In this document: positions 1,489-3,090 of the stretch, piece after piece | Position numbering within the stretch: position 1 is the first letter of the stretch | How the letters are laid out: each line of letters starts with the position of its first letter | Source of the DNA: Actinomycetota bacterium | Lineage (GTDB): Bacteria > Actinomycetota > Actinomycetes > Nanopelagicales > Nanopelagicaceae | DNA length: 49,359 nt | NCBI GenBank assembly: GCA_003151395.1 | Contig: PLXJ01000033.1 | Span: 37,564-86,922, forward strand | Direction of reading: 5' to 3' | Program-made: the position numbers and the translations under genes | Notes under the pieces: model-generated | What the model was told of the DNA's origin: nothing | The model's input: only the letters and a program-made list of their open reading frames with translations | Database searches by the model: none

Positions 1489-1550
1489 CATCTTCCTAGG
1501 CAAAGGTAGGCGAGTTGAGTAGGGACGTGTCCGTTCCATCCAAATTGAAA

Positions 1551-1574
1551 GGGCCCCGAGTTTCCCCGGGACCC
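1551..1574 (-). terminator. intrinsic terminator downstream of the tRNA
   Basis: On the minus strand GGGTCCCG and CGGGGCCC form a stem around a short AC-rich loop, followed by TTTC. It lies about 60 nt beyond the CCA end of the tRNA, as expected for a single-gene tRNA transcript. The U-tract is short. Confidence 0.6.
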
Positions 1575-1636
1575 ATGCTCAACTTCTCTAACTTTTTGAT
1601 CACTGCCAATAGATCAGTCGAGATGATTTGAGGCTG

Positions 1637-1713
1637 TGGTGTTGTCGACGGGATTCGAACCCGCATCCTGCGATTGGCGAAAACGCATGTGCTGCCAGTT
1701 ACACCACGACAAC
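1637..1713 (-). tRNA. tRNA of uncertain isotype with an abnormal anticodon arm (CCA encoded)
   Basis: The acceptor stem GTTGTCG/CGACAAC pairs perfectly and is followed by A73 and an encoded CCA (1637-1639). T8, a D-arm with GG at 18-19, and a T-arm GCGGG-TTCGAAT-CCCGT are standard. The D-arm resembles actinobacterial glutamine tRNAs. The anticodon arm does not fold normally. TGCG pairs with CGCA around an 11-nt interval, giving either a 9-nt loop after a T-T mismatch, or a mismatched stem with loop TTCGCCA (anticodon CGC) and one extra base between D and anticodon stems. Alanine is unlikely because G3-U70 is absent. It may be a non-standard tRNA or a recently damaged copy. Confidence 0.7.
1663..1681. 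repeat. inverted repeat, tRNA copy
   Basis: These 19 nt cover the 3' half of the anticodon loop, the 3' anticodon stem, the variable loop and the first two T-stem bases of the tRNA. They recur in inverted orientation at 1834-1852 with one difference (18/19). At the RNA level that difference is a G-U pair. Confidence 0.75.
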
Positions 1714-1796
1714 ATCACCTTCGGATAATGGCTCATCTACAAGGAATAGAATTTTCTTTTGTTGACTCCTGTGGGCATTGTGGGGGTGTGGATAGC

Positions 1797-1830
1797 AAAA
1801 AAAAGAGACCCGGGTATACCCCGAGTCTCT
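1797..1830 (-). terminator. strong intrinsic terminator (minus strand)
   Basis: On the minus strand AAGAGACTCGGGG, loop TATA and CCCGGGTCTCTT form an 11-12 bp stem with one mismatch, followed directly by eight T residues. It ends any minus-strand transcript arriving from above 1834 and isolates the tRNA from it. Confidence 0.8.
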
Positions 1831-1833
1831 TAA

Positions 1834-1852
1834 TTCGCCAATCGCAAGATGC
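1834..1852. repeat. inverted repeat, second copy
   Basis: Partner of 1663-1681 in opposite orientation, 18 of 19 positions identical. It lies immediately upstream (minus-strand sense) of the terminator at 1797-1830. It is not part of a second recognisable tRNA. Confidence 0.75.
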
Positions 1853-1862
1853 ACGAGAAGTA

Positions 1863-2027
1863 TTACACATATGCAGCCGACATGGCTTGACGAAACTGCT
1901 TAATATACAGAGGTGTGTTCAGCCGCAGCTTTAGAGTGGAGTGACCAAGGGAAATCAATCCATTTATCTGTGTGGGAATTATGATCCACGTTTCCAGAAT
2001 AAGTTGAGTCCGTCCGAATTTTGGACG
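1863..2027 (-). pseudogene. remnant of a second phosphoribosyltransferase 3' end (fragment B)
   Basis: Bases 1942-1975 match 2644-2677 of the phosphoribosyltransferase at 30 of 34 positions. In the matching minus-strand frame the remnant reads TDKWIDFPWS against TDKWIEFPWS, then diverges (LHSKAAAEHTSVY) to a stop. Upstream of the match the frame stays open only a few dozen codons, contains no start, and shows no further similarity. It is therefore a broken tail, not a functional gene. Confidence 0.55.
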
Positions 2028-2619: not shown

Positions 2620-3090
2620 TTATACCTCGACTTTACCTTGGACTGACCAAGGGAATTCGATCCATTTGTCTGTCTGGCGCCATACATACTCAGGCTTAAC
2701 TATTGTTGTTGGTTTTTCGTAGAGCACTGCAAACCGAACTTCTGCGACGTAGCCAGTTAAGAAGTCTTTAACGAGTTTGAGCGTTTCTCCTGTATCAGCC
2801 ACATCATCTGCAACTAAAACCTTTGTTCCCTTTAGGTCTATGCGATCGGGAACTGGTGGCAGAACAACTGGCATTGGCAGACGTTCATCGATGCCGGTGT
2901 AGAACTCGACGCTCAAGGTGAAAGAGTTTTTCACGTCTATGGCGTAACCGAGTCCTGCGCCCAAAAAGAAACCACCACGAGCGATCGAAAGGATGATGTC
3001 GGGTTGGTATCCAGAGAGCAGAATTGTTTTGCCGAGTTCGCGGACCGCTACTCCGAATTGTTCGTACGATAATCGCTCTCGCTCATCCAT
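2620..3090 (-). CDS. phosphoribosyltransferase (purine-salvage type)
   Basis: 156 residues. The type I PRTase signature VLVADDVADTGETL lies at about residues 91-104 (PRPP-binding acidic pair and loop). SIARGGFFLGAGL at about 35-47 is the pyrophosphate loop region, and the C-terminus has the aromatic segment KWIEFPWS. Such enzymes transfer phosphoribose from PRPP to xanthine, guanine or hypoxanthine; the exact base cannot be read. It follows the ROK kinase gene by 9 nt. Its own candidate -10 box TAAGTT overlaps that gene's TAA stop and lies 6 nt before the ATG. Parts of its 3' end are duplicated at 1471-1488 and 1937-1975. Confidence 0.85.
   Translation of the reverse strand: MDERERLSYEQFGVAVRELGKTILLSGYQPDIILSIARGGFFLGAGLGYAIDVKNSFTLSVEFYTGIDERLPMPVVLPPVPDRIDLKGTKVLVADDVADTGETLKLVKDFLTGYVAEVRFAVLYEKPTTIVKPEYVWRQTDKWIEFPWSVQGKVEV

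Follow-up and report, generated by a model that had tools for sequence, protein, structure and literature searches.

Why does a bacterial tRNA gene stand beside a short inverted copy of part of itself? In the 49,359-nt stretch of Nanopelagicaceae DNA that we analyzed (the window), the 19 nt at 1834–1852 (minus strand, GCATCTTGCGATTGGCGAA) are an inverted copy, identical at 18/19 positions, of positions 1663–1681 in a tRNA gene, as stated in the preliminary description of this DNA. An RNA read from the minus strand is predicted to pair without a break, and with one G-U pair, with nucleotides 33–51 of the tRNA; when the flanking U-G is included, the duplex has 20 pairs and a predicted energy of -35.8 kcal/mol. 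Just as had been proposed, the paired region runs from the 3′ part of the anticodon loop through the 3′ strand of its stem and the variable region into the T stem, of which it includes two bases. The signals said to border the segment are present as well, with an extended -10-like box, TGTAATACT (1859–1867, minus strand), 7 nt upstream and an intrinsic terminator directly downstream, composed of a 12-bp hairpin (1803–1831, minus strand) and a U-run that extends to 1797. We therefore place here a predicted anti-tRNA small RNA (sRNA) of ~57 nt (1797–1853, minus strand), starting after the -10-like box, composed of the antisense segment and the terminator, and kept in four genomes. By our estimate, the chance of an 18/19 inverted match anywhere in 49 kb is ~0.3, which is not rare, and that of such a match within 200 nt is about 0.002, being far lower inside a tRNA.

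The sRNA gene is part of an RNA-only module on the minus strand (1534–1873), which is the sole stretch common to the window and loci L017, L018, and L019 (73–81% identity). This ~340-bp unit carries no protein gene and contains, in the direction of transcription, the sRNA gene, a tRNA-like gene, a trailer hairpin, and a terminator. The -10-like box of the sRNA, whose promoter activity is inferred from its sequence, aligns with TGCAATACT or CGCCATACT in orthologues and with TGNCATAAT or TGGCATACT in paralogues; promoters in the modules were recognized by eye only. Between the sRNA terminator and the putative tRNA promoter are repeated YCCACA motifs (1770–1792, minus strand), the first of which, TATCCACA, is DnaA-box-like. 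The tRNA-like gene (1637–1713, minus strand), in which the inverted repeat and duplex prediction place the sRNA target at 1663–1681, is followed by a 3′ trailer hairpin (1578–1632, minus strand) and by the terminator of the tRNA-like transcript (1548–1574, minus strand). The loop of the trailer hairpin (about 1603–1612, CTATTGGCAG) contains ATTGGC, the complement of the GCCAAU in the anticodon loop of the same transcript. In Rfam, the module matches tRNA only and no other known RNA family. An 18-nt direct repeat (1471–1488, with its other copy at 2622–2639) flanks the module region and is possibly the trace of an insertion. This repeat is exact, and a second direct repeat of 66 nt is 77% identical between 1910–1975 and 2612–2677. 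Both copy the 3′ end of a phosphoribosyltransferase-like ORF (2620–3090), and their copies bracket the module together with a neighboring pyridoxamine-oxidase-like gene, possibly as insertion scars.

The partner of the sRNA is only in part what it had been taken for. It is indeed a tRNA for both ARAGORN and Rfam, which call it at 1713–1637 on the minus strand; however, it is a special tRNA-like RNA rather than a housekeeping tRNA. Like tRNA genes (RF00005), the tRNA-likes have the tRNA fold, good D and T loops, and matches with both programs. In contrast to tRNA genes, they have a mismatched or extended anticodon arm and a long structured trailer, and they join a Gly- or Arg-like body to an Ala/Val-type anticodon. 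In the window, the body is Gly-like (GTGGTGTAAYTGGCAGCAC..., with U73 in most relatives), and the anticodon arm, which contains a mismatch, is best drawn with a 9-nt loop or with a mismatched 6-bp stem that has an extra pair. The canonical 7-nt loop on a paired 5-bp stem is absent from the window and from most Gly-like members, in which the conserved anticodon loop is instead [TC]TTN[GA]CCAA. The automatic Ala (CGC) label is therefore doubtful, given this Gly-resembling body, the odd anticodon loop, and the missing G3:U70 pair. Since canonical Ala, Val, Gly, and Arg tRNAs are found in the genomes, the tRNA-likes are surplus to the canonical set.

The sRNA segment is present in three more genomes of the bacterial family, G138 (JACPZY010000070.1), G118, and G034. 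The stretch common to these orthologues is ~300–340 bp and corresponds to 1534–1873 of the window, and the adjacent genes are unrelated across the four genomes. Free decay of the inverted copy beside a kept tRNA, which would have spoken against a function, is not what related genomes display: the two copies change together. For example, in L018 (G118), one pair is altered on both sides, from G to A in the sRNA and from C to U in the tRNA. Decay has instead gone the other way in G034, where the sRNA segment is almost identical but the tRNA-like gene is degenerate (30 bits, its acceptor stem disrupted) and has lost the match. This is as expected if a toxin decays first. Nevertheless, L004 and L019, in which the sRNA remains without a matching target, could represent plain decay in progress, which counts against a toxin–antitoxin reading. 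No empty site was found for the window module, the flanking gene being missing from near relatives. The possibility of a phage or plasmid element was discarded, as searches of viral contigs, phages, and plasmids gave no matches.

The predicted pairing is not confined to these orthologues: about 59 other loci of the bacterial family have it in other sequences, which turns the single locus first described into a family of modules. We ran R1, a covariance model of the tRNA-like RNA, over 201 family genomes. Since R1 also scores ordinary tRNAs at up to about 71 bits, only higher-scoring matches of 75–76 nt and their relatives were fetched. Almost all Gly-like loci have, upstream on the same strand and typically 100–145 nt away, a segment of 10–22 nt that is complementary to their own tRNA and has a terminator directly after it. 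In 42 non-redundant Gly-like loci, the mean complementarity score is 13.4 with the locus's own tRNA vs. 9.2 with those of other loci, a value reached by 0/20,000 permutations, in which loci of <92% identity count as independent; for 36 canonical tRNAs used as a control, the mean is 8.9 and the maximum 11.3. The predicted duplex energies agree, at -26.7 kcal/mol for own vs. -16.0 kcal/mol for other partners, and the own partner ranks first in 28/37 cases. In the class that targets the anticodon arm, where 14 pairs could be followed in 24 distinct loci, 93.2% of the cells are paired, as opposed to 23–44% when the alignment is slid. Both sides have changed in 10 of these 14 pairs, and the covariation score is 0.600 vs. 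0.173 ± 0.019 in shuffles. These comparisons show that the predicted pairing is selected and specific for the neighbor, and, with dozens of pairs each matched to its own partner, evolution has tested it many times. The idea of a minimal antisense RNA, made of a pairing segment and a terminator and directed at its neighbor, is thus upheld by covariation across dozens of independent loci. A coincidence, or a recent inverted duplication that serves no function, might have accounted for a lone 18/19 match in 49 kb, which is not impossible; family-wide covariation and the permutation tests refute this reading, and we regard it as vanishingly improbable. Besides a match with three mismatches, no further target of the window sRNA was found in its own genome.

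In a second group of Gly-like loci (class B), with UAC/CAC-type and some other anticodons, the upstream RNA is longer and contacts its partner differently. A hairpin loop (YTGGTAA and variants) complements the anticodon loop and tracks its changes, as in TTGGTCA with UGACCAA (L080) and TGGCTA with UAGCCA (L087). A further segment, UGGAG..., complements the 3′ strand of the acceptor stem, base 73, and CCA. UGG is found opposite CCA in 16/17 class-B loci (the 17th, L094, has an automatic register shifted by one), and yet the genes encode CCG, CTG, CGG, or CGC at that place. Since this sequence exists only in a tRNA that has received its CCA tail, the selected target is the mature tRNA. This match to a posttranscriptionally added CCA, which is the strongest single argument for an RNA product as the target, agrees with the original suggestion of an antisense RNA aimed at a tRNA. 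Class-B sRNAs are reminiscent of T-box riboswitches, in that they contact the anticodon loop by a hairpin loop and the NCCA end by UGGN, ahead of a terminator. However, in contrast to T-boxes, their pairing continues through the acceptor strand, and the neighboring gene supplies their ligand. The element reading the anticodon and the UGGN–NCCA pairing are found in class B only; the window locus belongs to class A and forms one long antisense duplex without either element. Membership of the T-box family was rejected, as the architecture of the family model (Stem I/antiterminator) is missing and there is no Rfam match, RF00230 giving none at E ≤ 1 in L014, L015, L078, and L083.

A second family of modules, in which the tRNA-likes have an Arg-like body and anticodons of the GAC/AAC type, was traced with another model, R2, and yielded 17 non-redundant loci. 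Here, the sRNA is divergent from the tRNA-like gene, starts a few bases past a -10-like box, and again comprises an antisense segment and a terminator. Its specificity is just as marked, with an own score of 14.9 vs. 7.9, 0/20,000 permutations, and the own partner first in 15/17 loci. A layout that can be divergent requires an sRNA capable of acting in trans. A third layout is seen in the Arg-like locus L143 (G085:C113), in which the antisense segment and terminator lie downstream on the opposite strand (convergent). Beyond the bacterial family, no convincing tRNA-like was found by R1 in 148 genomes of the class and 396 of the phylum or by R2 in 296 genomes of the phylum, in searches that would miss members built on another tRNA body. 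The lone outside matches, L101 (tRNA-Gly CCC; R1) and L162 (tRNA-Ala GGC; R2), look, from their anticodons, like ordinary tRNAs.

Most Gly-like and Arg-like transcripts carry, like that of the window, a 3′ hairpin with a loop matching the anticodon loop (TTGGYR with YRCCAA, TTGGTCA with UGACUAA, or TCGTCAG with CUGACGA). In the 42-locus set, the trailer–anticodon score is 5.14 for own vs. 4.61 for other pairs, with 2/20,000 permutations reaching it. Before processing, the trailer may keep the anticodon bound; the match, although significant, is hard to place in a toxin model and counts against it. Other motifs look regulatory. Upstream of the sRNA, at about the -35 region, the palindrome TTACTCYGAGTAA is found in 27/37 loci vs. 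2/37 control flanks (in Gly-like loci, e.g., L017, L083, and L092) and is likely to be the operator of a regulator. TTWTNCACA occurs as an exact match between the sRNA terminator and the tRNA-like gene in 14/37 loci vs. 0/37 control flanks. One or two DnaA-box-like TTWTCCACA motifs, ~20 bp apart, precede the tRNA-like promoter in the window (1770–1792) and at equivalent positions elsewhere. In L081 and in the first module of L087, an identical GTGTGGTGTCTCCAGACATCGAGGACGGATGTCTCCAG takes the place of the usual trailer directly past the 3′ end of the tRNA-like gene, and looks like a repeat inserted at a tRNA 3′ end.

Some modules are embedded in arrays. Direct repeats, RCCAACCCCACTAATCGTTAATRCAACCCCT in one genus and GGATCCGGCTTATAGGGCGACTCTTCT in others, recur every 0.5–3 kb between small ORFs (seen in L172, L173, and L087, from G034 and G138) and are also present in the flanks of L014, L062, L066, L083, L068, L071, L073, L078, and L089. 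For about 10 modules, they stand on both sides at a constant distance; none flank L169–L171 or, as a point against the toxin–antitoxin reading below, the window copy. The arrays are integron-like cassette arrays; none of the ten ORFs checked in L172 is an integrase or recombinase. Toxin–antitoxin cassettes of known integrons carry their own promoters (PMC11023631). The modules resemble them as small units with (predicted) promoters in cassette-like arrays, but have no protein toxin or antitoxin, and their repeat sites lack an attC assignment.

What might such pairs of RNAs do? The best explanation overall, to which we give slightly better than an even chance, is that the two small RNAs act on each other, the sRNA inactivating the tRNA-like RNA. 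Both would be made from their own promoters; the 5′ 19–20 nt of the sRNA would bind the 3′ half of the anticodon arm and unfold the tRNA-like RNA, leaving it unable to act in translation. Less certainly, free tRNA-like RNA would be harmful through its body of Gly or Arg type, an anticodon that reads GYN codons, and an abnormal anticodon loop; as a guess, the harm might come from the mismatch of body and anticodon at GYN codons or from a frame-shifting loop. What the classes have conserved is not a single structure but the outcome, with the anticodon region and/or the acceptor end covered, which fits inactivation of the tRNA-like RNA. Whether each pair is in addition a portable all-RNA toxin–antitoxin or addiction cassette seems to us evenly balanced. 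The organization is of that type, with two small adjacent genes and self-specific partners in a patchy and portable unit, and such a cassette would also explain the self-specific paralogues, the protein-free portability, the loss of the tRNA in G034, and the modules in repeat arrays. The fullest version, to which we lean a little less than evenly, is that these are undescribed selfish or protective all-RNA cassettes, with the tRNA-like as toxin and, as antitoxin, an anti-tRNA sRNA recognizing mature tRNA, that have spread in this small-genome Actinomycetota family, partly in integron-like arrays.

The main rival involves no addiction. The tRNA-like could be a useful special tRNA or translational regulator, kept off by the sRNA until needed, with its dose or timing controlled, e.g., by stress- or replication-linked expression. 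Canonical T and D loops would suit working tRNAs with a tuned dose, the operator-like TTACTCYGAGTAA in 27/37 loci and the DnaA-box-like motifs suggest regulated expression, and the modules are kept in small genomes. We nevertheless find this unlikely, though well worth considering, because distribution is patchy, many paralogous self-specific pairs coexist per genome, the modules are portable among unrelated loci, and the tRNA part has decayed in G034. Improbable in our view is T-box-like attenuation, with the sRNA as a prematurely terminated leader and the tRNA product deciding on its own read-through. The tandem layout and nearly constant distance in Gly-like families would agree with it, as would class-B leaders that touch the anticodon and CCA end in T-box fashion; however, the divergent sRNA of the Arg-like families cannot serve as a leader, most loci have a -10-like box (by eye) immediately before the tRNA-like gene, and neither an antiterminator overlapping the terminator nor an Rfam T-box match was seen. 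More improbable still is a functional dual RNA, whose sRNA/tRNA-like complex would itself act as a guide, anticodon-nuclease decoy, or sponge. The long specific pairing, and trailer and class-B hairpins predicted to bind the anticodon loop too, could point to such a complex, but the site of pairing differs among modules (the 3′ or the 5′ side of the anticodon arm, or the anticodon loop plus acceptor end), so that no common complex is conserved, and the ORFs of 56 loci include no recurring protein partner beside the modules.

Inactivation of the tRNA-like RNA by the sRNA has partial parallels in known systems. As in type I toxin–antitoxin systems, a small antisense RNA with its own (predicted) promoter and terminator lies beside its target gene, and paralogous pairs are orthogonal. 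However, the target is a tRNA-like RNA, apparently recognized in its mature CCA-tailed form, rather than a toxic-peptide mRNA; it has a tRNA fold and no conserved ORF that could encode a hydrophobic or nucleolytic peptide. CreTA likewise combines an RNA toxin and an RNA antitoxin centered on a tRNA, with CreT sequestering a rare tRNA via a mini-ORF and CreA repressing the CreT promoter with Cas proteins (PMC8501985). In contrast, the module sRNA is complementary to the tRNA-like RNA and resembles no crRNA, consisting by inspection of antisense and terminator only, without repeat-like handles. We found no description of such modules in Rfam or the open-access literature, and in the latter no bacterial sRNA dedicated to a tRNA. 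Toxic tRNA-likes would make the modules a protein-free type of toxin–antitoxin system, whereas useful ones would make them a new posttranscriptional control of a tRNA. Either way, they offer natural orthogonal tRNA/anti-tRNA pairs that are directly testable in laboratory strains. VapC toxins cleave tRNA anticodon loops, and one small ORF that is VapC/PIN-like by eye (L020:2604–3011, a single occurrence) lies near the orthologous module in G138.
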